IMG/VR virus record: IMGVR_UViG_3300017917_001194
Location: 22,397-86,396 of that record
Length of the DNA stretch: 64,000 bases
Origin: a virus
Direction: 5' to 3' (one strand)
Under the pieces are notes generated by a model, which made no database searches, was not told the origin of the DNA, and saw only the letters and a list, made by a program, of their open reading frames with translations. The position numbers and the translations under genes are program-made. Of this stretch, positions 1 through 51,346 are shown piece after piece (position 1 is the stretch's first letter; each line of letters starts with the position of its first letter).

Positions 1-228
1 AGGAAGATTAGTCATAGCGGTTTTATAATCGTATGTCCATCCGCGATCCATGTCCCATATAGGTTCGCGATTAGATAAACTAGCCCACATGTTTTCTTGT
101 TCCATGGTGCTACGACTTAGTGGTTGCCATTCAGCACGATCATATAAGTTGTAACTGATGGCCTGCGGTAAAAGTTTTTCGTCGTAATCCTTCTCACGGA
201 TTAACACTTGTCGTCTAAGGATTTTCAT
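1..228 (-). CDS. Hypothetical protein, 3' end cut by window edge
   Basis: An open frame starts at an ATG whose first bases overlap the TGA of the upstream 82-residue gene (ATGA), and it runs off the left edge. The visible 76 residues begin MKILRRQVLIREKDYDEKLL and are rich in charged and aromatic residues (YNLYDRAEWQPLSRSTMEQE). I recognise no domain. The coupling shows that it belongs to the same leftward operon as the small paralogs to its right. Whether it carries their C-terminal motif cannot be seen. Confidence 0.7.
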   Translation of the reverse strand, partial: MKILRRQVLIREKDYDEKLLPQAISYNLYDRAEWQPLSRSTMEQENMWASLSNREPIWDMDRGWTYDYKTAMTNLP

Positions 229-473
229 TTATGTTTTAGATAATCAAATACATCGCCGTACTCATAGAACCCGCCACCTGGACTCGTATGATACCTGCGA
301 TAGACAGTTTGGCTGGGCCAATACCACTTACCCCGAACACGCTTGGGTAGACGTAATCTGTATGGTTGCCATGCCTGTTCTATCTTGATACGTTGTTCCA
401 TCTCCGCAAAATCTTTTTCCATTTTAGCAATTATACGATTGATGGTATTAGCACGTTTTTGACTTATGTTCAT
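225..473 (-). CDS. Small basic hypothetical protein (82 aa)
   Basis: It is translationally coupled on both sides: its ATG overlaps the stop of the gene before it (470-473) and its stop overlaps the next ATG. The N-terminal 35 residues look helical and charged (MEKDFAEMEQRIKIEQAWQP). The rest is aromatic and basic (GKWYWPSQTVYRRYHTSPGG). It lacks the F-x-L-[KR]-W tail of its neighbours, so it may be an outlier of the array or unrelated. Function unknown. Confidence 0.7.
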   Translation of the reverse strand: MNISQKRANTINRIIAKMEKDFAEMEQRIKIEQAWQPYRLRLPKRVRGKWYWPSQTVYRRYHTSPGGGFYEYGDVFDYLKHK

Positions 474-766
474 TGTTCAGTAATATACTTTAATTGAAAC
501 CAACTTTGTGTCGCTTGGTTGAAAAAATCTAAATGTATCTGATCTTCATAGTGATATCGATGATCAAATTCAGATACCAGTGCGTCATCGTGTACATTAA
601 ATGGAACTAATCCTTTGTGGCGTCTAACAGTAAATCCAAGTTCGCGTTTCATCTTCCACGTGATCATAATACTAGGACCATAGTCTCTTATTAACTGTCG
701 GCTTATGCTCTCCCACTCACGAGGCTTGTGAAATATAATTAAGTTTTTCTTAACGGTTATCTTCAC
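470..766 (-). CDS. Small array protein (98 aa) with degenerate C-terminal motif
   Basis: It starts with GTG directly after the TAA of the upstream gene, with no gap, and ends in an ATGA overlap with the next gene. The C-terminus (FFNQATQSWFQLKYITEQ) resembles the shared tail of the array: acidic or polar residues, then W-F-x-L-K-aromatic. The N-terminal half (KPREWESISRQLIRDYG) could be a short helix after a beta strand. No known family was recognised. Confidence 0.7.
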   Translation of the reverse strand: MKITVKKNLIIFHKPREWESISRQLIRDYGPSIMITWKMKRELGFTVRRHKGLVPFNVHDDALVSEFDHRYHYEDQIHLDFFNQATQSWFQLKYITEQ

Positions 767-1033
767 TTACAGTTCTTTGGCTTGTAGTTTCAACCAGGTT
801 ATAATTTTTGGATCACATTTCTTGTGTACATCGCGTCCGTGCTCGCGAACTAATAGAATACCATTGGCATTTTCTAACCAAACGCGACTGGCCATTTGAA
901 AGCAGGCATTGTGTAAAATCTTTTGACCAGTGCCATCAAGTTCTTCGGGGTGATATCCACGCTGAAAGGCATAACGCACAGGTTCGTTAAACAATTTAGT
1001 TCCTTGCGGAAATTCGTAGTAGTAATCAATCAT
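767..1033 (-). CDS. Small array protein (88 aa)
   Basis: I chose the ATG at 1033 because it overlaps the upstream stop as ATGA; an ATG four codons earlier is possible. The product begins MIDYYYEFPQGTKLFNEPVR and ends DPKIITWLKLQAKEL, a weak version of the array motif (W-L-K-L). The middle (ASRVWLENANGILLVREHG) looks like a beta hairpin. Function unknown. Confidence 0.7.
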   Translation of the reverse strand: MIDYYYEFPQGTKLFNEPVRYAFQRGYHPEELDGTGQKILHNACFQMASRVWLENANGILLVREHGRDVHKKCDPKIITWLKLQAKEL

Positions 1034-1314
1034 TTTGTTTTCCACTTTAATGAGAACATTGTAGCATCTTTTGCTTCTTCAAACAACCATTTACCCAGAT
1101 GTTCTTGATGTTGACCTGTACAGTTTTGGTCTACCCAGTTCTTAACCTCCATCCAGGTTTGAGTATCATCGCCATCTCCACGATAGTAATCAACTTCAAC
1201 CACAGCCCAGCCGACTCGTATCATAACATCGCATAGAACATCAAAGTCCATAGTGTGTTGCATTTCTTCAGCTAGCTCATCTACAATAACGCCTTCTAGT
1301 TCTCTTCCGTTCAT
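1030..1314 (-). CDS. Small acidic array protein with F-x-L-K-W tail (94 aa)
   Basis: The start at 1314 (MNGRELEGVIVDELAEEMQH) gives an exact ATGA overlap with the upstream gene; the longer upstream reading is an artefact of the neighbouring gene. It is strongly acidic. It carries the array pattern: a W-V-x(6) helix (VKNWVDQNCTG), then a strand and the tail KDATMFSLKWKTK. No recognised fold. Its place in a 14-gene coupled run suggests co-expression rather than a separate role. Confidence 0.75.
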   Translation of the reverse strand: MNGRELEGVIVDELAEEMQHTMDFDVLCDVMIRVGWAVVEVDYYRGDGDDTQTWMEVKNWVDQNCTGQHQEHLGKWLFEEAKDATMFSLKWKTK

Positions 1315-1538
1315 ACGCACCTCAGAGCAAATTCCACAGCCTTGGCTCGATCTTTGAAGAAGTAGTAATATCCATCTTCGGTGAACGTACAATACGCCCA
1401 CTCACCTTTTGGTACATGGTCCCAACACCAAGCGGTTTGTGACAGCAACTTATTATATCCAGCGTTAACCATGTGAGGGAAGGACTCGAGATACACATCA
1501 ATCACTCGATTCATTCTGGCTCGTTCTTTTCTACTCAT
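1311..1538 (-). CDS. Small array protein with F-x-L-R tail (75 aa)
   Basis: The start at 1538 (MSRKERARMNRVIDVYLESF) makes an ATGA overlap. A basic N-terminal helix is followed by an aromatic stretch (FTEDGYYYFFKDRAKAVEFALRCV). The tail has Cys where most paralogs have Trp or Phe. Function unknown. Confidence 0.75.
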   Translation of the reverse strand: MSRKERARMNRVIDVYLESFPHMVNAGYNKLLSQTAWCWDHVPKGEWAYCTFTEDGYYYFFKDRAKAVEFALRCV

Positions 1539-1726
1539 TGTGCCCATTTTAACCTAAACCAAGTAGCATCGCGTTCTTCTGTAAACAACACTGAGATAGA
1601 TTTATTCCTACCACGCACACCTAGGTGTAAAAAACTTGCTAACTGTTGAGCATCTAACGAAATCTCACCGCGTCTATCCCACGCACGATCTCCCGTAAGG
1701 TCAACTCTATAAGCACCAGTAGTCAT
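1535..1726 (-). CDS. Small array protein with F-x-L-K-W tail (63 aa)
   Basis: The start at 1726 (MTTGAYRVDLTGDRAWDRRG) overlaps the upstream stop. It is one of the shortest members. The ending ISVLFTEERDATWFRLKWAQ is a clear copy of the shared signature: a strand, an acidic turn, D-A, then x-F-x-L-K-W. The N-terminal part has no counterpart that I can align to the other members. Confidence 0.75.
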   Translation of the reverse strand: MTTGAYRVDLTGDRAWDRRGEISLDAQQLASFLHLGVRGRNKSISVLFTEERDATWFRLKWAQ

Positions 1727-1947
1727 GACCACCTTAATTTAAACACTACAGCATCCTGCTCGTGAGCAAAGTGATAGATGTTTTCTGCCCATTTAGCAGT
1801 AACACACCAAGGATGATCTTCGTCAACTTGATCTCTGTGTGGAGCAAGAGCACCTACATTATCCAATAACCAACAATGAATGACTTCTTCAGTTTGAACC
1901 ACACGCTCAATCATATGCAATGGTAAACTAACTTCTGCTCGAATCAT
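1723..1947 (-). CDS. Small array protein with F-x-L-R-W tail (74 aa)
   Basis: It has ATGA overlaps at both ends. It contains the W-L-L helix seen in the array (EEVIHCWLLDNVG), a middle strand (WCVTAKWAENIYHFAHE) and the tail QDAVVFKLRWS. This is one of the cleanest examples of the two-part pattern, helix plus C-terminal strand. No known domain. Confidence 0.78.
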   Translation of the reverse strand: MIRAEVSLPLHMIERVVQTEEVIHCWLLDNVGALAPHRDQVDEDHPWCVTAKWAENIYHFAHEQDAVVFKLRWS

Positions 1948-2159
1948 GCAAATCTCAACAAGAATCCTGTGTACTTCTTTTCATCTACAACTTTGATAAA
2001 CATTTCTCCATGCTCTATACCCCATTGTTCCAGCAACCATTCGCGGTATCCTTCTGGGTAACTCTGCATGGGAGTGTCGAACTCTCGACCATAAAAGTCA
2101 ATAGCACGTTGTACAGCGTCCCAATTGATCACTCTTTTATCCATCATCATTATAGTCAT
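1944..2159 (-). CDS. Small array protein with F-x-L-R-F tail (71 aa)
   Basis: It is coupled on both sides by ATGA. The sequence shows a helix with W (YREWLLEQWGIEHG), a strand (MFIKVVDE) and the tail KKYTGFLLRFA, with F in place of the final W. It aligns best with the next gene upstream, whose tail is DYTAFMLRFG, which suggests a close pair. Function unknown. Confidence 0.78.
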   Translation of the reverse strand: MTIMMMDKRVINWDAVQRAIDFYGREFDTPMQSYPEGYREWLLEQWGIEHGEMFIKVVDEKKYTGFLLRFA

Positions 2160-2380
2160 CCAAACCTCAACATAAAAGCAGTATAGTCAGCATCGTCAGG
2201 GAACTCAATCCAGAACTTGGTATCTTCCCAAAAGTACTTTCGATGACTCATATGGTGTAATCCAAAGTGCTCACGCCACAATGCACCCATGATTTTAGGA
2301 GTAACGGGTTCCATAGACATTATGACTTGGCTGGCACGATTGTATGCTTCACCTAGTTGTTCTCTAGTGGTTTTGACCAT
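2156..2380 (-). CDS. Small array protein with F-x-L-R-F tail (74 aa)
   Basis: The start at 2380 gives a 17-nt overlap with the upstream gene, the one junction inside the array without ATGA or direct abutment; no other ATG fits. It carries ALWREHFGLHH (the W helix) and ends FPDDADYTAFMLRFG. Function unknown. Confidence 0.75.
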   Translation of the reverse strand: MVKTTREQLGEAYNRASQVIMSMEPVTPKIMGALWREHFGLHHMSHRKYFWEDTKFWIEFPDDADYTAFMLRFG

Positions 2381-2708
2381 TTGGAAAGCTCAACATAAAC
2401 CAGTTTAGTGTAGCATCATCGGCAATATACAATCTATACTCTGAATACTTGATTGAGTATGCCCATGCTTTATTGTGTTCAGCAACTTCTTTATCACGTG
2501 TGGCCTTAATAATCTCGGCACGTGTTTCTACATCCTGGCTCCAACCAAATTTCTCGTTGAACCAACGACGGCATTGATCGAATTCCAATACTCCTGTGCG
2601 TAGCATAATTCGTCTAATATCAGGTCGTTGACGTTTAAACTCAACCATCCACGCAAAGTCACTGTGCCAAGCATGTCGTTTATCAAGTTTAGTTACAGTA
2701 TAGTTCAT
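2364..2708 (-). CDS. Array protein, recent paralog of 3117-3455 (114 aa)
   Basis: The start at 2708 (MNYTVTKLDKRHAWHSDFAW) makes an ATGA overlap. It is nearly a duplicate of the gene at 3117-3455: both share MNY-TKLD-RH-WH, GVLEFD-RRWFNEKFGWSQ, AWAYSIKY and ATLNWF. The block RRWFNEKFGWSQDVETRA is identical but for one residue at its end. It is the longest type in the array. Its tail (DDATLNWFMLSFPNGQNH) has L-N-W-F-x-L instead of the usual F-x-L-[KR]-W. Confidence 0.8.
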   Translation of the reverse strand: MNYTVTKLDKRHAWHSDFAWMVEFKRQRPDIRRIMLRTGVLEFDQCRRWFNEKFGWSQDVETRAEIIKATRDKEVAEHNKAWAYSIKYSEYRLYIADDATLNWFMLSFPNGQNH

Positions 2709-2932
2709 TCTAATCCCCACTTCATAACGAACGCTAGGTAATCCTTTTCCTTATGAAACTGATAGTACACAGGATTCCAACCGGACCAACAATACCTGCG
2801 ACCCTTGCCTTTGCGTCCGTAGTTCTTGATCAACCAATCGGCACGTTGCTCGTCTACGAACCAATCGTCACCTGATAACGATACATAATATTTCCAGTAT
2901 CTCCGCGAGTAACGTTTTTGTTTAGAGTTCAT
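2705..2932 (-). CDS. Small basic array protein with F-x-M-K-W tail (75 aa)
   Basis: The start at 2932 (MNSKQKRYSRRYWKYYVSLS) gives ATGA. It is very rich in Lys, Arg, Tyr and Trp, with RADWLIKNYGRKGKGRRYCW in the middle and the tail KDYLAFVMKWGLE. The strong positive charge differs from the acidic members, so the array holds both acidic and basic proteins of the same plan. Function unknown. Confidence 0.77.
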   Translation of the reverse strand: MNSKQKRYSRRYWKYYVSLSGDDWFVDEQRADWLIKNYGRKGKGRRYCWSGWNPVYYQFHKEKDYLAFVMKWGLE

Positions 2933-3120
2933 GCCCACCTCAAAGCAAACATTATAGCATCATCTACCAATTCAAATCTAGCACGACGTGTAGCGGTGCC
3001 AGGAGGGCCATAGATATTATAGTTGCCCTTGCAGTTATCTCTGCACCACTGATGTAGGGCTTCGATATCTTTGTATCGTGTGACACGAGCAGTAACTTCA
3101 GTCCAAGGTTGATTGATCAT
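2929..3120 (-). CDS. Small array protein with F-x-L-R-W tail (63 aa)
   Basis: The start at 3120 (MINQPWTEVTARVTRYKDIE) gives an ATGA overlap; the longer reading frame starts inside the upstream gene. It shows ALHQWCRDNCKG (the W helix), a basic strand (ATRRARFELVDD) and the tail DAIMFALRWA. Function unknown. Confidence 0.77.
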   Translation of the reverse strand: MINQPWTEVTARVTRYKDIEALHQWCRDNCKGNYNIYGPPGTATRRARFELVDDAIMFALRWA

Positions 3121-3455
3121 TTGTCCACCTTTGGATGACTTAGAACAAACCAATTGAGTGTGGCATCATCGTGTACATAAATTCTATAATCGTTGTACTT
3201 GATTGAATAGGCCCAAGCAGTATTAAACGCTTCTGGTAATTTGTCAAGTGGTGCTGATTTGATTATACTAGCACGAGTTTCTACATCCTGGCTCCACCCA
3301 AACTTTTCATTAAACCAACGACGACTCCGATCAAACTCTAGCACTCCAGTAGTGGTGTGTGGTGCATTGATGCGACTTTTCTTAAACTCAATCATCCACT
3401 TAAATGACTGGTGCCACGAGTGTCTGTGATCTAACTTGGTTATTTCATAGTTCAT
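3117..3455 (-). CDS. Array protein, recent paralog of 2364-2708 (112 aa)
   Basis: See the paralog at 2364-2708: long identical blocks, with the main difference in a variable segment around residues 30-40. It ends HDDATLNWFVLSHPKVDK. Its stop lies 1 nt beyond the next ATG region and it is coupled upstream by a 1-nt gap. The pair shows that this operon grows by gene duplication. Confidence 0.8.
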   Translation of the reverse strand: MNYEITKLDHRHSWHQSFKWMIEFKKSRINAPHTTTGVLEFDRSRRWFNEKFGWSQDVETRASIIKSAPLDKLPEAFNTAWAYSIKYNDYRIYVHDDATLNWFVLSHPKVDK

Positions 3456-3456
3456 G

Positions 3457-3711
3457 TTATGACCATTTTAATTGCAACATCGTCATAATATCTTGTCGTC
3501 TGATTTGATATTGGTGATTGCCCATATTATGATATTGCTTACCAGACCAGTTTCTTTCCCATGGTGTTAACCCGGATGCCGGAGTGCGTTGTTCGGCACC
3601 AAATGTTTGAGTAAGCCACTCATATAAATCGTCGGACTTATCATCAACTGCTACAGTCCAATGAGGATGATTATATCCGTTTCTGTGTTTTTGTATATAT
3701 TTGATTTTCAT
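3457..3711 (-). CDS. First gene of the small-paralog operon (84 aa)
   Basis: This is the promoter-proximal gene of the leftward array. It begins MKIKYIQKHRNGYNHPHWTV and contains LYEWLTQTFGAEQ (the W helix) and the tail DIMTMLQLKWS. No near-consensus promoter is visible in the 81 bases upstream, so the operon may depend on read-through from the MoxR gene or on a phage-specific promoter. Confidence 0.75.
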   Translation of the reverse strand: MKIKYIQKHRNGYNHPHWTVAVDDKSDDLYEWLTQTFGAEQRTPASGLTPWERNWSGKQYHNMGNHQYQIRRQDIMTMLQLKWS

Positions 3712-3792
3712 GATTACCCTTAGATCAAAAGGAAGGAGGGCAGTGCGAACACAGCCCTGTGAATCTTAATACACCACCCTCCTATAAGCTAC
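3712..3792. promoter_or_regulatory. Spacer with inverted repeat between MoxR and the small-gene array
   Basis: The spacer contains GGAGGG near 3731 and CCCTCC near 3777, which can pair to close a long hairpin of about 50 bases with an inner CAGGG/CCCTG pairing. It could be an attenuator or an RNA-processing site. There is no U-run of the kind expected for an intrinsic terminator on either strand, so the array may be transcribed from upstream. Confidence 0.35.
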
Positions 3793-4878
3793 TTAGGCGC
3801 TTGCCTGTAAAATGTACTTGCCGTAGCGTTGGTGGAACTCGTCAAAGTTCTTCAACTTAGTAGGCTGGAATGGAAGATTATAGGTTGTCAAAGCAATCCT
3901 TGCCCCCATCACAACCAACTCAGTTTCAAAGTTCTTCATCATGTAAGCAAAGAATCTATCTGCCATTTCATGGAACTTCTTGTCCTCAACCTTCTTCTCT
4001 ACAGCACCTTTCAACTCATAGCACATAGAAATCACTAGCGAATACATAGCTGACACTTCCTTGACATCCAAGCTGTCAGTTTTACCTGACAAGATGTCTT
4101 CTGGCTTGGGCATACGTCCAGCAATCTTGCGGTGTGCCATAAATTTAACAGCAAGGCCTTCACCTACAGTACCTGCGATCAAGTTCATTGTGGTGTCATC
4201 ATCGTGATCTTCGTCCTCTAACAACTGGCTCACGAATGTCCATGAACGTGGTGTGGCAAAAGCACGTGACGCTGACTTGGCATCAAAATCATACAAGTCT
4301 TGCTTGGCGAAGCTCAAGTAACCTACTACGTCCTTGTGGATTTTGTTTTGTACAGCCCACTCTTGCCAGCTAGGGAAGTCCACACGCATTTCCTGGTGAA
4401 CAAAGCGGTTGGCAAGTGGTGTTGGCATACGGAATGTTACACCTTTGTCCGACTCTCTGTTACCTGCGGCAACCAAAACTACATTGTCTGGCAATGTATA
4501 TTTGCCGATACGACGGTTCAAGATCAACTGATAAGCGGCGGCCTGAACTGAAGGTGCGGCAGAGTTCATCTCATCCAAGAATAGCACAACAATAGGATAC
4601 TGACTAGCTAGTTCTTGACTTGGCAAGTCGATAGGCTCGGCCCAGTCCATCTTACCCAAGTCCTTATTGTAGTAAGGAATACCACGGATATCGGTGGGCT
4701 CCATCTGACCTAGACGCAAGTCAATCATATAACCACCTAGTTCTTGGGTGATACCCTCAACTAGTTCTGACTTACCAATTCCTGGAGGACCCCAAAGGAA
4801 CAATGGGCGTTTGGCTTTAAATGCTTTGAGCAAACTTTTGCGAGCTTGCGAACTTGTAACTGTTCTTGATTCTGACAT
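3793..4878 (-). CDS. MoxR-type AAA+ ATPase
   Basis: This is an ATP-driven remodelling protein of the MoxR/RavA group of AAA+ ATPases. Visible are Walker A (GPPGIGKS, about residues 30-37), Walker B (VVLFLDEM, D102/E103), sensor 1 (AAGNRES, N140) and a likely arginine finger (LANRF, R158). At 361 residues it is full length for the group. MoxR proteins usually work with a von Willebrand A-domain partner and activate metal or cofactor enzymes or complexes. No such partner is seen in this window, so its client is unknown. Homologs are common in large phages. A sigma70-like promoter lies about 45 bases upstream. Confidence 0.88.
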   Translation of the reverse strand: MSESRTVTSSQARKSLLKAFKAKRPLFLWGPPGIGKSELVEGITQELGGYMIDLRLGQMEPTDIRGIPYYNKDLGKMDWAEPIDLPSQELASQYPIVVLFLDEMNSAAPSVQAAAYQLILNRRIGKYTLPDNVVLVAAGNRESDKGVTFRMPTPLANRFVHQEMRVDFPSWQEWAVQNKIHKDVVGYLSFAKQDLYDFDAKSASRAFATPRSWTFVSQLLEDEDHDDDTTMNLIAGTVGEGLAVKFMAHRKIAGRMPKPEDILSGKTDSLDVKEVSAMYSLVISMCYELKGAVEKKVEDKKFHEMADRFFAYMMKNFETELVVMGARIALTTYNLPFQPTKLKNFDEFHQRYGKYILQASA

Positions 4879-7035: not shown

Positions 7036-8628
7036 ATGTTTGACAATTCCAAACCAAACGTTATTATTCTCGCAGATTTAACCGATGTGGTCACAATGAG
7101 TAAAACACTCGGGCCATATAAGGTAGCTAATGAGTTGCGTCGTGCTGGGTTTGAATGTATGGTATTACAACATATTCATACCATGGATTTTGAAGAGTTA
7201 AAATATCTGTTAAGCAATCTAATATCAGATCAAACTTTATTTGTTGGGATCAACACAATGTTCTATCAGGACATTGATGGGGTCGTTAAATCGCCAACCG
7301 AACCTATGTATTATAAAGAAGCACATCCTGGTGCTATGTTACCACACGGGTACAAATATAATCAAGAATTTAAAAATTTTGTTAAACTGTGCAACCCTAA
7401 TACAAAAATAGTATTAGGAGGATCCAAGTCAGTTGATGCTAGTTGGAATAAAGATTATGATTATCTAGTATTTGGGTATGCTGATGTATCAATTGTTGAA
7501 CTTGCTAGATATCTTCAAAATCCTCAAGGAAAACTTAATAAATCTTATCGAAGCATTCATGGCCCTGTTGTTTTAGACGATAGTCGTGCTGAAACATATG
7601 ATTTTAATAATACCCCTATGGGGTATGTTGACCACGATATTATACTTCCAGGAGAAACATTAAACATTGAGATAGCCCGAGGTTGTATATTTAGATGTAC
7701 TTTTTGTAGTTATCCGTTGAATGGTAAGAAGAAGTTGGATTTTATTAAACACGAAGAAATACTATATAATGAATTTATAGATAACTACCGACAATGGGGA
7801 ACAACACGTTATATTTTTTCTGATGACACGTTTAATGACAGCGCAGAAAAAATTGAGATGATTTGGCGTATTAGCAGACGTTTACCATTTGATCTTGAGT
7901 TTTGGGCATTTGTTCGACTAGACTTGTTATCCGCACATATTGACTTAACAGACAAACTTTTTGAAAGTGGGCTTCGCGGATGCTTTTTTGGAATTGAAAC
8001 CATGAATGAAAAATCGGCCCGCTCTATAGGTAAAGGTGGTAGTCGCGAAAAACAAATTGATACCTTAAAATACATTAAGGATAAATGGGGCGATAAAGTT
8101 ATATTATCAGCCGGATTTATACTTGGACTACCATATGAAGATCTTAACAGTATGAATTTAACAATTAATACGTTAGTAAGTAGACAAATACCGCTAGACC
8201 ATTGGAGTTTTTTTCCGTTAGTTATCCGGGGTGATATAACACAGCACAGTAGCAATTATCACAGTGAACTAGATAAAAATTATACAAAATACGGGTATCG
8301 TAAAATTGGAGTTGACGGAATTTTTCTTGATTGGGAAAATGATTATACAAATTATAAAGAAATACTCCAATTATCTAAATGGGCCAATGAAATCTCAACA
8401 GAACGCGGCATTCGTACAATAGATTCATACCAAGCATTTAGTATTGCCGGTTTGGGTTTTGATTTAGATTTTACAAGAATCAGATCTAATAATGAAATTG
8501 ATTGGCATAAAATTTTCTTAACCAAGCAACAACGTGCTTTAGAGTATAAAAATAAAATATACTCTATTCAAAATATCAAACCTTATTATAGCAAATCTAA
8601 GTTCAGTTGGACTTGGTCTGGAGTGTAA
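7036..8628 (+). CDS. B12-binding-type radical SAM protein (530 aa)
   Basis: The radical SAM cluster motif C-x3-C-x2-C is in ARGCIFRCTFCSYPLNG (about residues 216-232). The preceding 200 residues have the layout of the Rossmann-like N-terminal domain of cobalamin-binding radical SAM proteins (FVGINTMFYQ, IVLGGSKSVDASWNKDYDYL, VFGYADVSI), though the canonical cobalamin histidine motif is not obvious. Such enzymes methylate or rearrange unactivated carbons. It is one of the few plus-strand genes and converges on the epimerase gene with a 26-nt tail-to-tail overlap. No Shine-Dalgarno is apparent. Substrate unknown. Confidence 0.8.
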   Translation: MFDNSKPNVIILADLTDVVTMSKTLGPYKVANELRRAGFECMVLQHIHTMDFEELKYLLSNLISDQTLFVGINTMFYQDIDGVVKSPTEPMYYKEAHPGAMLPHGYKYNQEFKNFVKLCNPNTKIVLGGSKSVDASWNKDYDYLVFGYADVSIVELARYLQNPQGKLNKSYRSIHGPVVLDDSRAETYDFNNTPMGYVDHDIILPGETLNIEIARGCIFRCTFCSYPLNGKKKLDFIKHEEILYNEFIDNYRQWGTTRYIFSDDTFNDSAEKIEMIWRISRRLPFDLEFWAFVRLDLLSAHIDLTDKLFESGLRGCFFGIETMNEKSARSIGKGGSREKQIDTLKYIKDKWGDKVILSAGFILGLPYEDLNSMNLTINTLVSRQIPLDHWSFFPLVIRGDITQHSSNYHSELDKNYTKYGYRKIGVDGIFLDWENDYTNYKEILQLSKWANEISTERGIRTIDSYQAFSIAGLGFDLDFTRIRSNNEIDWHKIFLTKQQRALEYKNKIYSIQNIKPYYSKSKFSWTWSGV

Positions 8629-37466: not shown

Positions 37467-39479
37467 TTATTCAATTAGTTTTATAGTTCTACTAAATTTA
37501 CTATCAGCCAAACTAATTGCCTGATAAAAGTATTGTTCGTACTGTTTGAGTGGGGTTGCTTGGTGTTGATGCCATGTAATGTCTTGGTAAGTTTGGTTAA
37601 CAAAAATTGTTTGATCGTTAATTTGATATGTGTACGATCCTCGATTTAATTGCTTGATTTTGAAATAGGTGAGCCAATCATACTCTGTATCAAACTCTCG
37701 GCCAAGATTAGGGTTATATTCCGAATCCAATACTCCATTCCGTAAGTAAATACCAAGATCTGATATAATAGGATCGTTAAGCCTCTTCGCTAAGTCATTG
37801 CATAATTTACTATAAAATAATTGTGCGTTGGTTAATGCAACAAATGCGAAATACGTTCTGGGTGGTAAAAGTATCGGGAAATCAGGATGGTAGTCGATTC
37901 CGTGTTGAGTAAATGTAACATCGTGTACCCATTGATGAATGGTCTGGTATCCTAATGCAAATAACTTTTCTAACACATCTTCGTTAGATAATTTGGGTTT
38001 GACATAATTTTTATAGATAAAATCTTGAACAAACGATGGCTCCATATGATGTGTATCTTTAATATATCTACAAAGCATAGCATTAACACCAGTGTAATCA
38101 TTTGCAAATGCTAGACCGTTAACAAGATACATGTCCACCCATTCATCCTTGGTATAGCTATAAGTTTCCACAACGCTTTCAACTGTTGGATTGTTCCAAG
38201 TGTGTGAGTTAAAGATTGCTGGATGAATTTCAAATTCTTCCTTTACTAACCAAGACTCGGTTGACATCATCTTAGGAACCGTTTGAATCTTAAATTGTTC
38301 TCTCATCTCAGGACTAAACGCTGGAGTCTCGGGTAATAATATCCATGTGTTTGGTCTAGCCGCACTGAGATTATTATTAACCAGGATGTCAATTTGATTA
38401 AGAGTTTTTTGATAATTATCGCCTGGTAGTCCAGCAATAATTTCAACTTTAACCGGTAACTCTGGAAACTTTGATCGCAAATAGTTAACACTAGCAATTT
38501 GTTTTTCTATAGGTGGATCTATGCGTTCAACATTATTTTTAATTTCTTCATCTATTGCTTGAACTGAAATTTTGTGGTGATCTAGTAAACCTTGTTCGGC
38601 TAGAAGTTCTTTAATTTTAGTAGTTCTTGCCAGGTGATTTTTAGCATTCTCGGTAACAACAGTTTTTGGGTAACCATATTTTTTTGCAACATCAACAATA
38701 TGTTCGGTTATAGCAACATCAATTTCATAAATTCCAAAGTTAGCATCAAGGGTTGAAAACAATTTTACTTTGTTCGCACCGATCCATTCAATCTCATCAA
38801 GTACAATATCAAATGGTTTTTTAACTACTTTGGTGTATGTTCCGCCACCCCAATCACAATAGATACATTTATAAGGGCATCCCCGAGACGTTTCGATTGA
38901 TCCATACATAAATTGACCAGCGTATGGTAGAAGATATTTTTCTTGAGCCTTATAGATGTTATTGGGCCACTTGAAAGATTTTTTTTCGATTCCTAATTTA
39001 CTAAAGCATCGATTTTTATCTTTGTCGGCATAGTAGATGTATGGAATTTTTTCGTAATCAGTAATAGGAAAATAATCAAGTATTTCTTTGAATACTATTT
39101 CACCGTATGCATCACTTGGAACAACAATGTCCACCCAGGGCTTTTCTTTAAAAAAATTTTCATTGTATTTGATGTGGGGTTGTGGGCCACCGTAAACAAT
39201 TAAACAATTAGGATATTGATTTTTTACCTCTTCGGCTACTTCGTCAAAAAAAGATTCATTCCAGACGTACACACTAAAACCAAATATGTCCGGTGGCGCC
39301 TTTTGACATTCATTGAGAATCTCTTCTTTAGATCTATAATCAGCGATCCATGGGTCGGCCCACTGATATTCAGTATGTTTACTACTGTTTTCTTCGAAGT
39401 AAGTTTTAAGGCTACACCAGAGCAGAGGAAGAGTTAACTCGGCAAATGAGTGTTTATTTGCCACATACACATTTTTCAT
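37467..39479 (-). CDS. B12-binding-type radical SAM protein (670 aa)
   Basis: A cobalamin-type N-terminal domain (PDIFGFSVYVWNESFFDEVA, CLIVYGGPQPH) precedes the radical SAM core with cluster motif SRGCPYKCIYCDWGGGTYTK (about residue 200). KLFSTLDANFGIYEIDVAIT and GLPGDNYQKTLNQIDILVNN belong to the core. The C-terminal 250 residues are a large extra region. This is the architecture of the P-methyltransferase/B12 radical SAM group. Its substrate is unknown. Confidence 0.82.
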   Translation of the reverse strand: MKNVYVANKHSFAELTLPLLWCSLKTYFEENSSKHTEYQWADPWIADYRSKEEILNECQKAPPDIFGFSVYVWNESFFDEVAEEVKNQYPNCLIVYGGPQPHIKYNENFFKEKPWVDIVVPSDAYGEIVFKEILDYFPITDYEKIPYIYYADKDKNRCFSKLGIEKKSFKWPNNIYKAQEKYLLPYAGQFMYGSIETSRGCPYKCIYCDWGGGTYTKVVKKPFDIVLDEIEWIGANKVKLFSTLDANFGIYEIDVAITEHIVDVAKKYGYPKTVVTENAKNHLARTTKIKELLAEQGLLDHHKISVQAIDEEIKNNVERIDPPIEKQIASVNYLRSKFPELPVKVEIIAGLPGDNYQKTLNQIDILVNNNLSAARPNTWILLPETPAFSPEMREQFKIQTVPKMMSTESWLVKEEFEIHPAIFNSHTWNNPTVESVVETYSYTKDEWVDMYLVNGLAFANDYTGVNAMLCRYIKDTHHMEPSFVQDFIYKNYVKPKLSNEDVLEKLFALGYQTIHQWVHDVTFTQHGIDYHPDFPILLPPRTYFAFVALTNAQLFYSKLCNDLAKRLNDPIISDLGIYLRNGVLDSEYNPNLGREFDTEYDWLTYFKIKQLNRGSYTYQINDQTIFVNQTYQDITWHQHQATPLKQYEQYFYQAISLADSKFSRTIKLIE

Positions 39480-42259: not shown

Positions 42260-42906
42260 AACAAGGTTCTCAGATGGTCCGCCCAGAGTTGATGTCCTGA
42301 TTCGTTAAGATGAATATCATTCTTGTTTATCTCGCACTTATTGTCATGTATAAATTCTAGCATAAAATTTTCTGTTTGTAAATCCAAATGGTTAACACTT
42401 TCCTTACTAAAGTAAAACGGAATATATTTGCAAGGACAACGTAATGTCACACTGTCGAGATAACTAGTAAGATTACATCTCTGTTCGTATTCGGAGTAGT
42501 AATTACTAAACCACGTATCGTAAAATTCCAACCCCGAATTTAAGGGTGTAAGTCTTTTCCATTTGTTAAAGGTACTAGCAGTTGGATTATAACTTCTAAA
42601 TAATTGCCTTGTTTTAGTTGTAAATTTCAGCGAGCGATCAATCACATCAATATGTTGAGGATTGTCTGGTTGATATTCAAAGCTTTTTCTACTGTAATGA
42701 CTCCAACCGATGACTACAATATCATCATCGGCGATGAGATGACTGTTTTCTAAAAATGTATGATAGATAAAAAAATTGTCAGCACCAGATTGGGCAAAAT
42801 TTTCATAAGAGATACTTAAACCCTCAGCTAACAGATATCCCCAAAACTTATGTTCATCTACTAAATGTGGTAAACTCATACTCTGACCAAATATCCAAAG
42901 TTTCAT
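42256..42906 (-). CDS. SGNH-hydrolase-like protein (216 aa)
   Basis: Its start LWIFGQSMSLPHLVDEHKFW has a G-x-S block, VVIGWSH is a central strand, and NDIHLNESGHQLWADHLRTL has the D-x2-H pair of SGNH hydrolases. The loops between are long. It parallels the protein at 28593. Function unknown; probably acyl removal or transfer. Confidence 0.62.
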   Translation of the reverse strand: MKLWIFGQSMSLPHLVDEHKFWGYLLAEGLSISYENFAQSGADNFFIYHTFLENSHLIADDDIVVIGWSHYSRKSFEYQPDNPQHIDVIDRSLKFTTKTRQLFRSYNPTASTFNKWKRLTPLNSGLEFYDTWFSNYYSEYEQRCNLTSYLDSVTLRCPCKYIPFYFSKESVNHLDLQTENFMLEFIHDNKCEINKNDIHLNESGHQLWADHLRTLL

Positions 42907-43931
42907 AGGTATAACACCTCAATACTCTTTGGATTGTCTAAAATATTTTGAATTTGTATGTTGTTGATGTTTGGTCTACAAGGTTGACACAAACTAACAT
43001 TAGTTTTATTGTATATGTCTTGATGCTGTTCACCTAACCATAGGTCTCTAAAGTCTCCAGTATCCCAATTACCTAATTCAAACTGTGGATTACCTTTGTT
43101 TTCACAACAAATATATATTTTGCCATCAGCACAAAACACAGGAAAGTGGAACATCTGATGGCATTTTTTATAATTACGTGGACGAATTTTGTTCATGTTC
43201 ACATAATGCGGTAGATTAAATTCTACACTCAACCGTTGTAACATATCCAACATCTCATTAGTGATAACATGAGCGTTTCCGTTTATAATAGCCGGACGAA
43301 AATATAAACCACGCCCATTTACTTGTTTGACAGTTTTAAATAGATCATGCATGGCCTCGTAGTTGTCGTTTAGTGGATTAATTAGACATTTGAAATCTAC
43401 ATTAACACCAACTGAGATTAAATTTTGAGCATTATTAATTACTCGATTGAACAAACTCTTGGCCGTTAAACTATGACGAATTTTTTCGTATAGATCCTCA
43501 GTCCCGGCATCAATGTCTATACCAATCCACGCAATTTTTTTAAGTTTCTCAACAACGATACTGTTGAGTAGGCGATCTAGGTTACTGCCATTTGTAGTAA
43601 TGCTACACAAAAATCCAAGATCGATAGTGTGTTCGATTACGTGTTCATAACCGATTAAAACTGTGGGTTCACCACCGCCTGGATAAGTTATTGTATGTGT
43701 AGTTCCATAACTATTTGGGGTATGAGCTCGCCAACTGGCTAACTTGTTTAGTAGATTGATATACTCAGTATACTTTTTTTGTACTGGTTTGTTTTTTCTA
43801 AATTCCTCACTATTGCAGTAGTAACAATCCTGATTACAAACATTGGTCAAGTCAATGTCTACCTGAGCCGGCAGAATTTTCATTGTATCTTGGTTTTTCA
43901 TCCAATGTACTAGTTCAGCGTATTGATACAT
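42903..43931 (-). CDS. Radical SAM/SPASM-like protein (342 aa)
   Basis: Cluster motif C-x3-C-x2-C in DLTNVCNQDCYYCNSEEFRK (about residues 31-38), SAM motif TITYPGGGEPTVLIGYEHVI and SITTNGSNLDRL. The C-terminus has extra Cys (CADGKIYICCENKGN and SLCQPCRPN) as in SPASM or Twitch domains that hold further clusters. SPASM proteins modify peptides or sugars. It lies between SGNH and GT genes. It could act on a peptide or sugar precursor in this cluster. Confidence 0.82.
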   Translation of the reverse strand: MYQYAELVHWMKNQDTMKILPAQVDIDLTNVCNQDCYYCNSEEFRKNKPVQKKYTEYINLLNKLASWRAHTPNSYGTTHTITYPGGGEPTVLIGYEHVIEHTIDLGFLCSITTNGSNLDRLLNSIVVEKLKKIAWIGIDIDAGTEDLYEKIRHSLTAKSLFNRVINNAQNLISVGVNVDFKCLINPLNDNYEAMHDLFKTVKQVNGRGLYFRPAIINGNAHVITNEMLDMLQRLSVEFNLPHYVNMNKIRPRNYKKCHQMFHFPVFCADGKIYICCENKGNPQFELGNWDTGDFRDLWLGEQHQDIYNKTNVSLCQPCRPNINNIQIQNILDNPKSIEVLYL

Positions 43932-44887: not shown

Positions 44888-45794
44888 GTAATGTGTATTT
44901 TGGTCGCCAATTGGCCATCTGTTCAAATTTAGTTGCATCGGCTGTAAGAGTAGCCGGGTCGCCATCGCGCTTGGGACCAAACTCGATTTGAATAGGCAAG
45001 TGTGTAACACCACGAATAGCATCAACTACTTGTAAATTACTTGCACCTGTTGATGTGCCTAAGTTGTATACACCAGGCAATACCAACAACTTGTTTAGTG
45101 CTAGGATGTGTGCATCAACAATATCACTAACGTGTAAATAATCTCTTACACAGGTGCCATCATCTGTATCGTAATCGTTGCCATTACATACAAAGTGTTT
45201 ACCTAACTTGGCATTTTCAATAATGCGTGGAATGATATGTGTAGCACCTGGCTCTTGCCCATGACGAGCCTGTGGATCTGCACCACACGCATTGAAGTAG
45301 CGGAATGCTACATAATCAAAGTCGTAAGCACGAGCATAAGACTTGAGCATCCATTCAATCATTAACTTGCTTTCGCCATATGGACTGATAGGTTCTGCTG
45401 GGTCAATTTCTTGGCAAGGTGTTATAACAGGATTACCATAAGTAGCCGCACTGGAACTAAAGATTAGTCTTGGGCGATGTTCAAATGCCAACAAGTAATC
45501 GCAAAGTGCTTTGGTCTTAACAAAATTATTGTTATAATATTCTTCTGGATTGGCAATACTAGGACCGACTAAACTTGTACCAGCACAATGTATAATAGCA
45601 TCAACATTCTTTTGTGCCATCCAATTTAATCCAATGTCGCTGGCAAAGTCTGCTTGTAAAAATTTATCTAGCCAATTAAGATTTGTGGACAAAGGTCTAA
45701 GGTCAATACCGTATACTTCGTGACCTTGATCACATAGTTGTAGTACTGTTTGTCCGCCAATATAACCAGCGGCTCCGGTTACTAGCACTTTCAT
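44850..45794 (-). CDS. galE: UDP-glucose 4-epimerase (GalE-like, 314 aa)
   Basis: An extended SDR enzyme: KVLVTGAAGYIGGQTVLQL binds NAD, and ISPYGESKLMIEWMLKSYAR gives the catalytic Y-x3-K. The GalE signatures RYFNACGADPQARHG, HIIPRIIENAKLG and YDTDDGTCVRDYLHVSDIVD are present. It interconverts UDP-glucose and UDP-galactose (or the N-acetyl forms), giving donors to the GTs nearby. ATGA-coupled to the GT gene. Confidence 0.9.
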   Translation of the reverse strand: MKVLVTGAAGYIGGQTVLQLCDQGHEVYGIDLRPLSTNLNWLDKFLQADFASDIGLNWMAQKNVDAIIHCAGTSLVGPSIANPEEYYNNNFVKTKALCDYLLAFEHRPRLIFSSSAATYGNPVITPCQEIDPAEPISPYGESKLMIEWMLKSYARAYDFDYVAFRYFNACGADPQARHGQEPGATHIIPRIIENAKLGKHFVCNGNDYDTDDGTCVRDYLHVSDIVDAHILALNKLLVLPGVYNLGTSTGASNLQVVDAIRGVTHLPIQIEFGPKRDGDPATLTADATKFEQMANWRPKYTLHDIAQHAWNWYN

Positions 45795-46981
45795 TCGTAC
45801 TTGCTTTCTGCTACATGATCACGATAACGATTACCGGCTCTGTTCCACTGCTCGCCAGCACCAGTCATAATATCAACAATGCGATCAATAGTGCCATCGT
45901 TCCAGGCACTAATCTTGCCCATGTTCCGGTGCGGCTGTTTTAAAAGATTAACCAACTTATGATGTGCGTCATCAATGGACCAGGGTACATAGAGCCTATC
46001 AGGATCATTAGCAAAAGTTTCAGGGAAACTGCGATAAGCAGGATATAGAACGTTGGCACCCAAGGTATCGGCTTCAGAAACAGTATTGGATACCCAGTCC
46101 TGTAATGCACAATTAAATAACACCCGAGAATCATTAAGAAGAGCATAGTATTCGTCTTTCTTGAGGTCCTTATAAATCTTTAACAAGCCACGTGCTTCAA
46201 GTTCCTCTGCACGTTTAAGATACTTAGGATTGTTTGAACGCAGTGGACCACCCGAGAACACAGCAAACTCAACATCTGGATCTTCGTTCCAGGTTGTATG
46301 CCACGCTTCAATTAAGTCCATGAAAAAGTCTGGTTGTTTCTCTTGATCAAAACGTGCGGCAAAACACACACGTTTGGTACGTTCAGCAAACGGTTTAACA
46401 TTGAATGGACCACCCACCCGACCTAGTACTTCTTCCTTACCGAATGCTAGTCCACTGATGTTATAGATAGGAGCAGACCAGTTAGCAATACGCATATGTG
46501 CTACCATCTCTTCGTTAGTGGCAAGTATGCCTGTGACAAACTCATTGACCATTTGCTCATACAAGCTCATCCACTTGGCCATACCCCATACGTGTACAAA
46601 GTCATCTGGATCAATAGCTTGTGCTAGACAACGCACATATACACGTGGACGCTGATTGGCTGGAATCTGATCCATAATATATGGTAATGATTCGATACCT
46701 GGTTGGAACATGTCCTCGAAGTAAACAACATCCTCACCAGTACACTCACCGTTACGCATCATCTGTACCAAGTTCATCATTTGACTCATACCAAAGTAAC
46801 TGCGTCCATGTGCGTCTAACACTTGTCCTACACTAATGCTCTTGGTATTGTCAATAGTTTGACCTGGAACTACAACACAATCAATGCCGCGTCGCTTAAA
46901 CACAGCCTCATTCCATTGTTGTAGCTGAAGGGTATAACGGCCTTCGTATGGTTCGAGGCCCATGTAAAAGAGTTTACGCAT
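45791..46981 (-). CDS. GT-B glycosyltransferase-like protein (396 aa)
   Basis: A family 1-like, two-Rossmann-domain glycosyltransferase: KLFYMGLEPYEGRYTLQLQQ starts the first domain, then GEDVVYFEDMFQPGIESL and RPRVYVRCLAQAIDPDDFVH. The second domain has RVCFAARFDQEKQPDFFMDL, EFAVFSGGPLRSNNPKYLKR and SNTVSEADTLGANVLYPAYR with the donor-binding E-x7-E-like pattern. It could glucosylate a glycan or, as in T4, DNA. It sits in the sugar operon with galE. Confidence 0.8.
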   Translation of the reverse strand: MRKLFYMGLEPYEGRYTLQLQQWNEAVFKRRGIDCVVVPGQTIDNTKSISVGQVLDAHGRSYFGMSQMMNLVQMMRNGECTGEDVVYFEDMFQPGIESLPYIMDQIPANQRPRVYVRCLAQAIDPDDFVHVWGMAKWMSLYEQMVNEFVTGILATNEEMVAHMRIANWSAPIYNISGLAFGKEEVLGRVGGPFNVKPFAERTKRVCFAARFDQEKQPDFFMDLIEAWHTTWNEDPDVEFAVFSGGPLRSNNPKYLKRAEELEARGLLKIYKDLKKDEYYALLNDSRVLFNCALQDWVSNTVSEADTLGANVLYPAYRSFPETFANDPDRLYVPWSIDDAHHKLVNLLKQPHRNMGKISAWNDGTIDRIVDIMTGAGEQWNRAGNRYRDHVAESKYE

Positions 46982-49272: not shown

Positions 49273-49784
49273 TATTCTATCTCCTGGTCCTTACTGTATT
49301 TAGACCAATCTGTAAACACTGATCTATTTTGTAAGTCGTGTACGCTGTGACACCACACACCTGGATTAGTTGAGGCAAAGTCTACGTCATCGATCTTTAG
49401 TGTGGCATTATATCCCAACTGATTGATGTGCGGTAATTTAACACTAATCATAGGAATAAAGTTTACATAAGTTGTAAGTTCGGTGTTGGGCAAAAACTTT
49501 GCATGAGAAACATCTATGTCCAGTGTACACAAGTAACCAGCAGATAAACATTCGGCAACCATATCAATCCAATGTTTCCATTCATCTGCTGTGATATATT
49601 GTTGTGGGAAACTTTGATTAGCACCGAAGTAAATATGTTCTACTTCTTCTGTGTCGGCCCAATTTAATATATCTTCTGTAGATTGTATGCCCACAACAAA
49701 CAATGTCTTTTTGCCAAACGCCGGTGTATGTTCTACTTCTTCACCCACAAATGCTAGAGTTTTTTCGTGTCCTGGTCTATCCAT
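49272..49784 (-). CDS. Conserved-looking hypothetical protein (170 aa)
   Basis: An alpha/beta protein: KTLFVVGIQSTEDILNWADT, EEVEHIYFGANQSFPQQYIT, WKHWIDMVAECLSAGYLCTL. A possible TIM-barrel or Rossmann half. It lies directly after the DpdA-like gene with a 1-nt overlap, so it may serve DNA modification, for example as a partner subunit. No named family. Confidence 0.66.
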   Translation of the reverse strand: MDRPGHEKTLAFVGEEVEHTPAFGKKTLFVVGIQSTEDILNWADTEEVEHIYFGANQSFPQQYITADEWKHWIDMVAECLSAGYLCTLDIDVSHAKFLPNTELTTYVNFIPMISVKLPHINQLGYNATLKIDDVDFASTNPGVWCHSVHDLQNRSVFTDWSKYSKDQEIE

Positions 49785-51346
49785 TACTTCACCTCTGCTT
49801 CTAATGCATCGAGTTTATCAACTTCGTCAGCAGTAAATTCCTCGCCATGATCTTCGGGTGTGTCATCTACTACGTCAAACAGTGCGTTGAACTGTGGACG
49901 AGCACTGACTGTTTTCTTGCCTTTGAATCCACGTGTGCCGATAATGTCCATCCAATACTTGTTGTAGTGTTCAATGATAGCTTCAGCTTCATCTCTATTG
50001 GGTGTGGCAAAGATGGCATCTACAATATCTTTGAACTTGGCATGGTCGCCATTTTCATACCACATCATGTTAGGCCATGTACCGGAATCATAAGCACGAT
50101 TGGCACGTTGTACTGCTTCTAAGTGTGTCCAAACATTATGACCCATGAGCAAAGCATAACTGAAACTATCCCACGATGTTTTACCTTCTTTACCAATTTT
50201 ATTTAGGTCACCTGGTTTGTACACACAGATATCTTTCATTGTAAACAATCGAGAAATTGGACTTTCATCAAAGTGATTGATTAATCCATCTGCTACTACG
50301 GCTTGTCCATACGGACGGGCGTCTGTGCTATACTTCTTGTCATCCACAATAGGACTCATACGATAACACCATTTGTCATTGTGTGGCAAGTCAATGTGAT
50401 GATATACCTGTCCGTTAGCAGTTGCTAAGAATGGACTAGCACAGTCAAACGAGATAGTAAATGCTGGATTAACATATTTGCGAACAGCACGTTGAATATC
50501 TGTTAACAACACAGCCCACTCTAATTTACTTGTACCCAAGAAGTGCATCCAATCATGAATACCTTCTTGTAACAATCCATCATGACGTAGTGCTACAAGT
50601 CTGCGTAGTACCAAGTGTACATCACACATATTCTGACCACCCATGGCCCATCCATCAAAGTGTGTGTCTGGATACTTAACAGGATCGCAATACTCTTTCA
50701 TAATGTCATACCACTCATCTGCTGAACGATGATTGTCACCTTGTAACACGTTCAAGAACTTGGCACCACCATTATTCTTGCCCTTGCGATGCTTCATGAA
50801 ATAATCATTGTTGAACTTGGTAGCATCTACAGCTTCTTGTAGTGTGGTAATTTGACATTTGGCACTAGCGTTCTTATCGTGAATAACCCAAGTTGGAATA
50901 TCAAGAATCATGCCATAGTCAGCAACACCATCTAGCCACTTCAAGATTGCTTCACGTTTCTTTTGTGCTTTAGGGCAACCACTGTTGGCTTTCCAATCAC
51001 CCTCCCACAAACCCTTGGCAATCTGGAATCCACCTGAGTCACCTAGGATAAATGATCCTGGATCACGATTACGCACCATGTCCTCTGACCAGTCTTGCTT
51101 GGTCAAATCCAAGTTAGCGTGACCACCTGAATATAAACTCCACTTGTACGGAAACAATGCTTTCTGTGGATTAAGCCAGTTCATCATTTCCATGTCTTGA
51201 ATGCCAGCGGGCATACGTGCAGGATCAACGTAAGGACCATTTACTGGATCACGTTGCTTGCCTATGAACGTAGCATAAAAACCACTGATGGCCGGAAGGA
51301 ACACGGCATAATCATTCTGTTTTGCTGTTAAATTATCCTGCGACAT
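49784..51346 (-). CDS. dpdA: DpdA-like DNA tRNA-guanine-transglycosylase homolog (520 aa)
   Basis: A TGT-fold protein of the DpdA group, which exchanges guanine in DNA for a 7-deazaguanine. The general-acid region is PGSFILGDSGGFQIAKGLWE (D103), GWAMGGQ resembles the G-G-L-A-V-G loop, and TISFDCASPFLATANGQVYH holds the likely nucleophile D301. It is longer than bacterial TGT (about 370). The folE, queD-like and queE genes in the window make its substrate. The base could be CDG or preQ0, depending on whether queC exists elsewhere. Confidence 0.85.
   Translation of the reverse strand: MSQDNLTAKQNDYAVFLPAISGFYATFIGKQRDPVNGPYVDPARMPAGIQDMEMMNWLNPQKALFPYKWSLYSGGHANLDLTKQDWSEDMVRNRDPGSFILGDSGGFQIAKGLWEGDWKANSGCPKAQKKREAILKWLDGVADYGMILDIPTWVIHDKNASAKCQITTLQEAVDATKFNNDYFMKHRKGKNNGGAKFLNVLQGDNHRSADEWYDIMKEYCDPVKYPDTHFDGWAMGGQNMCDVHLVLRRLVALRHDGLLQEGIHDWMHFLGTSKLEWAVLLTDIQRAVRKYVNPAFTISFDCASPFLATANGQVYHHIDLPHNDKWCYRMSPIVDDKKYSTDARPYGQAVVADGLINHFDESPISRLFTMKDICVYKPGDLNKIGKEGKTSWDSFSYALLMGHNVWTHLEAVQRANRAYDSGTWPNMMWYENGDHAKFKDIVDAIFATPNRDEAEAIIEHYNKYWMDIIGTRGFKGKKTVSARPQFNALFDVVDDTPEDHGEEFTADEVDKLDALEAEVK

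Follow-up and report, generated by a model that had tools for sequence, protein, structure and literature searches.

Why should a phage carry fourteen very small genes chained tail to head, most of which end in the same few residues? In the window, by which is meant the whole stretch of 64,000 nucleotides analyzed, such a chain occupies positions 225-3711 of the minus strand. Its genes measure 63-114 aa when counted from the coupled ATG starts, and there are eleven ATGA junctions, of which the eleventh leads to a fifteenth gene that lies mostly outside the window. Our answer, to which we give a probability of about one half as a whole, is that the array consists of members of a one-fold protein family, that their tail codons are used twice, that the genes form coupled cassettes, and that the products make up a repertoire for host interaction.

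Genes of the array and their probable common domain

The genes are as follows, with identities referring to orthologs or paralogs in the loci compared.

3457..3711, minus strand: gene 1, 84 aa; tail IMTMLQLKWS, with L in place of F, seen by eye; no tail-profile match, and no BLAST relative at E 0.01
3117..3455, minus strand: gene 2, 112 aa; tail NWFVLSHPKVDK; profile match (E 0.098); 28 BLAST relatives; 66% identity to its paralog gene 5
2929..3120, minus strand: gene 3, 63 aa; tail DAIMFALRWA; profile match; ortholog L004:8348-8548 (64%, BLAST)
2705..2932, minus strand: gene 4, 75 aa; tail DYLAFVMKWGLE; profile match; ortholog L004:8951-9178 (56%, BLAST)
2364..2708, minus strand: gene 5, 114 aa; tail NWFMLSFPNGQNH; profile match (E 0.021); 28 BLAST relatives
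2156..2380, minus strand: gene 6, 74 aa; tail DYTAFMLRFG; profile match; ortholog L004:9094-9399 (74%)
1944..2159, minus strand: gene 7, 71 aa; tail KYTGFLLRFA; profile match; ortholog L004:9396-9605 (45%)
1723..1947, minus strand: gene 8, 74 aa; tail DAVVFKLRWS; profile match; 77 BLAST matches in the loci compared
1535..1726, minus strand: gene 9, 63 aa; tail DATWFRLKWAQ; profile match
1311..1538, minus strand: gene 10, 75 aa; tail KAVEFALRCV; profile match (E 0.015); C in place of W, yet GAGGTG is kept in the junction sequence
1030..1314, minus strand: gene 11, 94 aa; tail DATMFSLKWKTK; profile match
767..1033 (ORF 767-1045), minus strand: gene 12, 88 aa; its tail, ITWLKLQAKEL, is degenerate; L004:11123-11404 is 84% identical; 30 BLAST matches in the loci compared
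470..766, minus strand: gene 13, 98 aa, GTG start; tail SWFQLKYITEQ; 70 BLAST matches in the loci compared
225..473, minus strand: gene 14, 82 aa; C-terminus FDYLKHK, without the tail motif
1..228, minus strand: first part of gene 15, which is 117 aa long and lacks the tail motif; runs on beyond the window as L003:4272-4625; ortholog L004:11706-12053 (48%)

A 22-residue HMM of the tail, built only from other loci in other phages, matches 10 of the 14 array ORFs at E < 0.1 and leaves the rest of the window without a match. When the 14 proteins were shuffled, 200 rounds gave 0.005 matches per set, and over all loci the HMM matches 315 sense and 3 antisense ORFs. Gene 13 can be added through its orthologs, which match the profile (e.g. 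with the tail WFQLKYL), and gene 1 by eye, so that the tail is common to 11-12 of the 14 genes. The initial annotation was thus right in the coordinates, sizes and junctions of the array but too generous in giving the motif to all fourteen, since the tail of gene 12 is degenerate and gene 14 has none; both genes are nevertheless found again in sister arrays (e.g. gene 14 as L037:11123-11470). Neither of the outcomes that it named as refuting it, unrelated folds in structural models or absence of the motif from related phages, came about, and the motif is widespread in such phages. The median dN/dS of family members is 0.17, and selection therefore acts on the protein; a reading-frame artefact was rejected on this ground and on that of the antisense control. 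The array genes almost certainly belong to one protein family.

Conservation in the members extends to D-4, A-3, F-9 and a helix in the fronts marked by W-C, WC being present in 219 of 466 members against 28 in shuffles. AlphaFold models of gene 2 (pLDDT 90, pTM 0.82) and gene 11 (pLDDT 78, with the last helix at about 90), together with a profile-profile match (hhalign of A1 against A2, E = 4e-5, aligned from helix 1 to the end), point to one beta-alpha-beta-beta-alpha domain, although the A2 model was built on a mixed paralog alignment that could favour a common fold. Judged from these predictions, it is highly probable that the members share one small alpha/beta domain, and the array would then be built from a family of phage proteins of about 60-120 residues that have this one domain in common. 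In both models F-x-L-[KR]-W is located in, or at the end of, the C-terminal helix, not in a strand as had been supposed. Nor does the tail look like a separable docking strand joined to fronts of different origin: in the models it closes the domain as its last helix, the first helix with W-C is common as well, and unrelated fronts were rejected because this helix and the hhalign match indicate homology. The recurrence of one predicted fold is what the modelling proposed at the outset brought out. As the predicted closing helix of the domain, the tail would therefore be kept first as part of the fold.

The order of elements is that of the ferredoxin-like/RRM fold, with helix 2 packing after strand 3. 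The models contain five of the six elements of the RRM topology (beta-alpha-beta-beta-alpha-beta) but lack the final strand, and the best Z of about 5 is not above background (VIA-align, 4.8 and 5.6). Foldseek gave no significant match in PDB. Among BFVD models from uncultured Caudovirales phages, it retrieved A0A6J5LGE9 (E 2e-9, 28%) and A0A6J5LVZ4 (E 2e-8, 46% identity), which are evidently family members; the records seen for these entries describe no function, family or array.

Tail codons and the start of the next gene

A 4-base NTGA overlap ends 294 of the 466 members, and Shine-Dalgarno 4-mers occur in 139 of these 294 against 18.6 expected. The typical last codons are TTG-AGG-TGG-NNA-TGA, which read L-R-W-x-stop. 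The register of the signal is locked at -9, and the Leu codon before AGG ends in G. At the motif, AGG makes up 66% of the Arg codons, compared with 8% inside genes; this share falls from 76% to 0/5 as the next start moves away, though the group without a downstream start comprises only 13 members, of which 5 have Arg. The amino acids of the motif stay conserved whatever the distance to the next start. Three junctions of the array illustrate the arrangement.

2929..2943, minus strand: dual-use tail, TTGAGGTGGGCATGA = L-R-W-A-stop; the overlapping ATG of gene 4 is preceded by GAGGTG
1723..1737, minus strand: dual-use tail, TTAAGGTGGTCATGA = L-R-W-S-stop with the start of gene 9
3117..3132, minus strand: signal kept and protein motif lost, AAAGGTGGACAAATGA = K-V-D-K-stop, preceding the start of gene 3

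L-R-W is encoded by TTGAGGTGG, for which TTACGCTGG is a synonymous alternative. A Lys codon that supplies a start codon at position -10 (AAATGG) is conceivable in a 561-kb contig, but this was rejected as a general explanation, since overall AAA shows no enrichment.

Both sequence features of a translationally coupled operon, the stop/start overlap and a Shine-Dalgarno sequence in the upstream gene, are thus present, and the array genes would be translated in a coupled manner. ATGA overlaps in such operons have been treated in general (PMC2174442), and the array shares with them both of these features; it differs in that the signal stands in a fixed register within a conserved protein motif and is repeated in hundreds of paralogs. 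From the sequence, the tail codons probably serve as the ribosome-binding site of the next gene, and much of the sameness of the tail at the nucleotide level, overlooked in the initial annotation, looks like this site. The last codons would spell L-R-W-x-stop and, at once, the Shine-Dalgarno sequence and overlapping start of the next gene, so that each gene would supply the signal for its successor. Because the start signal would travel with each gene, whole genes could be gained, lost or swapped without breaking expression.

Neighbourhood and distribution of the arrays

Two features lie upstream of gene 1.

3793..4878, minus strand: MoxR-like AAA+ ATPase (phrog_1297, E 1.5e-99; Pfam AAA), the conserved upstream border of the array
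3734..3783, minus strand: RNA hairpin between the ATPase and the array (fold -27.7 kcal/mol, z -2.6)

The hairpin was not picked up by the terminator scan and is a possible attenuator or leader. In the group of the source phage, the array sits between the MoxR ATPase and VWA genes on the same strand and can be seen to expand inside this conserved pair: the gap ranges over 69-6446 bases in 67 loci and correlates with the number of members (Spearman 0.81), while the 23 pairs with a gap below 1 kb hold 3 members altogether. The array is collinear with that of L004, with gain and loss of genes, and arrays behave like plug-in cassettes. Turnover is not extreme, since most arrays still have almost their full set of members where the ATPases are 95-100% identical. 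This linkage is seen in the group of the source phage, but the arrays listed for most other contigs and for the cultured Sinorhizobium phage Phosso (PV764938) stand elsewhere; a strict MoxR link was rejected for this reason. In other phages the arrays stand among accessory genes.

The tail DNA pattern was found in 58 viral stretches and in no bacterial or archaeal sequence, and a scan with a single protein gave no bacterial or archaeal relatives either; the family is apparently restricted to viruses. Of the 24 contigs retrieved with only the tail pattern, 16 have the ATPase as well and 8, possibly partial, show none. At least 130 tail matches were counted in the 561-kb phage contig and 22 in Phosso. 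Direct tblastn of members against 50,697 phage records gave no match, and Phosso was reached only by the tail profile and consensus tails. In the stretches of Phosso that were read, the matches mark the C-terminal ends of small annotated genes, all named 'hypothetical protein', with tails such as DAMLFKLRWS and often in overlapping runs; they differ from the present array in that A or T often replaces R or K at position +3 and that the copies are spread over several clusters, none beside the ATPase. PA5oct and Atu_ph07 gave single weak tail matches (E 0.03 and 0.05), and T4, P-SSM2, RaK2, CBB, phage G, S-TIM5, a Vibrio phage and a Salicola phage none. In PA5oct, S-TIM5, Phosso and Atu_ph07, the surroundings of the ATPase gene are free of tail-bearing ORFs.

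Searches of Pfam and PHROGs (82 members), NCBIfam and PADLOC (56 members) returned stray single-member matches only (best E 0.0016), and the family, which is also without a match in PDB, is previously unlisted in these four libraries; the initial opinion that no known system fits is borne out. No description of such arrays was found in the literature searched, a search outside which most subscription papers fall.

In large phages, small genes of the early or accessory class can form strings, such as the small ORFs of T4 and the host-takeover module of SPO1. The array resembles these strings in being a run of small, mostly uncharacterised and rapidly changing genes, and differs from them in that a single fold family makes up the whole run and the last codons probably carry the start signal of the next gene.

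Possible functions of the family

What the proteins do can be approached through their position, fold and tail. The position suggests adaptors of a phage MoxR-VWA machine, in which the common C-terminal helix would dock on the ATPase or VWA protein and the variable parts would recruit clients for remodelling. The array indeed lies between both genes on the same strand in the source phage's group, and two thirds of the contigs found by the tail pattern encode the ATPase; but the arrays listed in these contigs and in Phosso are far from it, a third of the contigs, possibly partial, show none, the short ATPase-VWA gaps are nearly devoid of members, and the clustering can arise because this gap tolerates insertions. 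We regard such adaptors as unlikely, and the same holds for nucleic-acid binders, copies of an RRM-like sheet with different sequence preferences for RNA or single-stranded DNA. The nearest folds do include RRM, KH-like and ferredoxin-like structures, the members are rich in W, Y and F, and the F-x5-A spacing at strand 3/helix 2 matches that of RRMs. The structural Z scores are nevertheless at background level, the RRM family is absent from the profile matches, including those of 82 members in Pfam, and strand-3 column -12, the putative place of the RNA-stacking aromatic as assigned without coordinates, is T, R, V or E.

The double use of the tail allows for expansion driven by DNA, where the start signal and recombination at gene ends of similar sequence would account for tail conservation and array growth, and selection for protein function would be slight. 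Codon-level selection in the tail, and the decay of the motif in genes 2 and 10 while the signal is kept, are in keeping with it. This explanation is quite improbable, however, given the low dN/dS, the persistence of the protein motif where no gene follows, and the conservation of D-4, A-3, F-9 and the W-C helix, none of which the signal needs. Least probable of all is a sorting or packaging tag directing proteins to the virion or a phage compartment: the chain does end one residue past W in 336 of the 466 members, but the overlap geometry also accounts for this fixed end, and both models make the motif helical and part of a folded domain, not a free tail. The compartment sorting suggested in the initial annotation finds no support here.

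Under the preferred reading, the variable surfaces of the common domain would bind different host or phage targets, and the array would be a changing repertoire of accessory host-interaction proteins for takeover or counter-defence. We hold a host-interaction function at slightly under even odds, and the takeover or counter-defence role proposed earlier is a reasonable guess as a candidate function. The family libraries gave no resemblance to known counter-defence proteins, and dN/dS gave no sign of positive selection, which could be anticipated in an arms race. More tentatively, the arrays may represent a novel type of phage gene-expansion system, in which a one-fold repertoire reaching at least 130 copies per genome, carried in an editable coupled chain with dual-use C-terminal codons, diversifies interactions with host defence.

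Large phages have hundreds of small genes without assigned function, to which this family alone contributes at least 130 tail matches in the 561-kb contig, and a family profile would allow annotators to label such genes. Phosso, as a cultured phage, makes the function of the family testable. Part of the conservation of a C-terminal peptide can stem from selection on DNA, which calls for caution in reading such motifs, and the dual-use tail offers a concrete mechanism by which phages may add, drop and swap small genes with expression retained.

Layout of the array and its neighbours

The virus record comprises 86,396 bases in IMG/VR, of which the window spans 22397-86396. The array lies at one edge of the window, and most of its junctions are ATGA overlaps.

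3711 down to 225, minus strand: 14 small genes
228 down past window base 1, minus strand: 15th array gene, 117 aa, running on beyond the edge
3793-4878: MoxR-like AAA+ ATPase, upstream of the array

A strong RNA hairpin on the minus strand (3734-3783; -27.7 kcal/mol, z -2.6, UUCG loop) separates ATPase from array and is possibly an attenuator or leader. Past the array and outside the window come a gene for a porin and one of DUF2201/VWA type, the kind that usually partners MoxR ATPases. The porin gene has the array on one side and the VWA gene on the other (bases 3088-4116 of L003, a stretch of this virus record, some 0.3-1.3 kb ahead of the first window base); it encodes an outer-membrane protein with a signal peptide (Pfam Porin_4, E 1.4e-45). 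Because the phage encodes such a protein, a proteobacterial, perhaps betaproteobacterial, host is hinted at. Related contigs (L015 and L027/L028) encode diverged porins (26-30% identical) upstream of their ATPase, and therefore the porin recurs.

Elsewhere, the window encodes two radical SAM proteins (7036-8628, plus strand, and 42903-43931, minus strand; Pfam E 1.3e-13, phrog_1802 E 2.4e-9), and a clear DNA polymerase (phrog_262, E 7e-198) adjoins five large ORFs (396-672 aa) that have no PHROG match at E 1e-5:

37467-39479, minus strand
45791-46981, minus strand
49784-51346, minus strand
59316-61334, minus strand
61334-62686, minus strand

The shared tail and the predicted domain

The initial annotation described 14 paralogs sharing a C-terminal F-x-L-[KR]-W tail. 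A 22-residue profile, built solely from tails of other phages and scanned against all window ORFs, matched 10 at E < 0.1, every one inside the operon; a shuffle control on the 14 array proteins gave one match in 200 sets. Gene 470-766 is a member via its orthologs and gene 3457-3711 is judged so by eye only, and to this extent the description stands; it does not extend to 767-1045, with a degenerate tail, and 225-473, with none, although both genes recur in sister arrays. Across all loci the profile gave 315 sense and 3 antisense matches. The motif recurs in related phages.

AlphaFold models of gene 2 (3117-3455; pLDDT 90) and gene 11 (1030-1314; pLDDT 78) have a common strand-helix-strand-strand-helix, so that one predicted fold recurs, and place the motif within the last helix or at its end, not in a strand as first proposed. 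Profile-profile comparison between the groups of these genes aligns them over everything from helix 1 onwards (E = 4e-5, probability 70), and W-C occurs in the first-helix region of 219 of 466 nonredundant members (784 in the fetched loci before removal of near copies) versus 28 in shuffles. From the shared predicted fold, this alignment and the W-C enrichment, the fronts are divergent parts of one domain, sometimes with N-terminal extensions; they are variable, as had been noted, but not separate parts. In related arrays, a few ORFs with array-type tails (L132:2979-3374, L157:5235-5660 and L172:3619-4044) have a P-loop-like stretch (PGEMMIFSGGRQTGKS) in the N-terminal part, which looks as though a piece of an ATPase gene had been fused on.

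Searches of Pfam, PHROGs, NCBIfam, PADLOC and PDB sequences returned nothing beyond stray weak matches, PDB structure comparison gave no match above background, and confident Foldseek matches were solely to uncharacterised proteins of uncultured phages. In outline the predicted fold resembles a ferredoxin/RRM-like domain, with no match reaching significance. The family cannot be placed in any library tested, in agreement with the earlier failure to name a known system.

Spread and turnover

Eighty loci were collected via the ATPase, and tail matches occur in 29 of 30 whole records (the window's own and 29 contigs from these loci). Two DNA patterns of the tail, which do not rely on the ATPase, matched 15 and 58 viral stretches; all 24 long contigs from these matches contain several tail matches each, from 3 to at least 130 (150 of 282 candidates scored in the latter contig), and regions of three contain long, nearly unbroken runs of members. 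The second pattern had no match in bacterial and archaeal genomes (257 Gb). Sinorhizobium phage Phosso, with 22 matches, is the only clear carrier among the cultured phages tested. In contig IMGVR_UViG_3300046616_000314 (561 kb; L174, L175), there are runs of several dozen tail-bearing genes over ~25 kb, mainly on one strand, with tails EEDAxLFKLKWL, in whose K-W codons, AAATGG, the next gene might find its start codon (at -10). Adjoining a large array, three neighbouring paralogs of 133-140 aa (L173:348-1578), with a common HLPN(A/S)AHIDRI near the N-terminus, are a second tandem family.

In 67 loci with both ATPase and VWA, between 69 and 6446 bases separate the two, and larger gaps go with more members (Spearman 0.81). 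Very close relatives mostly have similar arrays, and greater differences in content are seen at 92-95% ATPase identity; the closest relative of the window (ATPase 93% identical) shares 8 collinear genes with it, with differing members in between. Array orthologs are under purifying selection, with a median dN/dS of 0.17 versus 0.067 for the ATPase, values that are approximate owing to high dS.

Tail codons as a putative start signal, and function

At motif position +3 (Phe being 0), AGG encodes 66% of the Arg residues in the 466 members, versus 8% in gene interiors, and TTG encodes 48% of the Leu residues at +2, versus 20%. The Leu codon has G as its last base in 83% of cases when AGG follows, in 60% when AAA follows and in 49% when the next codon is another Arg codon. 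Shine-Dalgarno 4-mers precede 139 of 294 overlapping starts, versus 18.6 (range 10-29) after synonymous shuffling, and sit at -9 in the family versus spread positions in non-family ATGA junctions. AGG at +3 declines from 76% with an ATGA overlap to 57% with a close start, 2/7 with a start 13-59 bases away and 0/5 with none within 60 bases, while the protein motif remains steady across these classes ([KR] at +3, 77-94%; [WF] at +4, 77-91%; F at 0, 92-100%). Conversely, genes 3117 (gene 2) and 1311 (gene 10; 1311-1538) have partly lost the protein motif and kept the signal (AAGGTGG and GAGGTG, respectively). Taken together, these patterns suggest that selection acts on the same bases in two layers, one for the protein motif and one for the DNA signal. 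From the sequences we infer that the tail codons would act in translation as the start signal for the next gene. The array would work like other translationally coupled operons but, unusually, its putative coupling signal sits in a conserved protein motif.

As for function, the array may be a repertoire of host-interaction proteins, which would fit the copy number and turnover of its members, their small size, their restriction to phages and their position among accessory genes. As rival readings, the proteins might be adaptors of the MoxR-VWA machine or RNA binders, the array might reflect DNA-driven expansion, or the tail might be a sorting signal.
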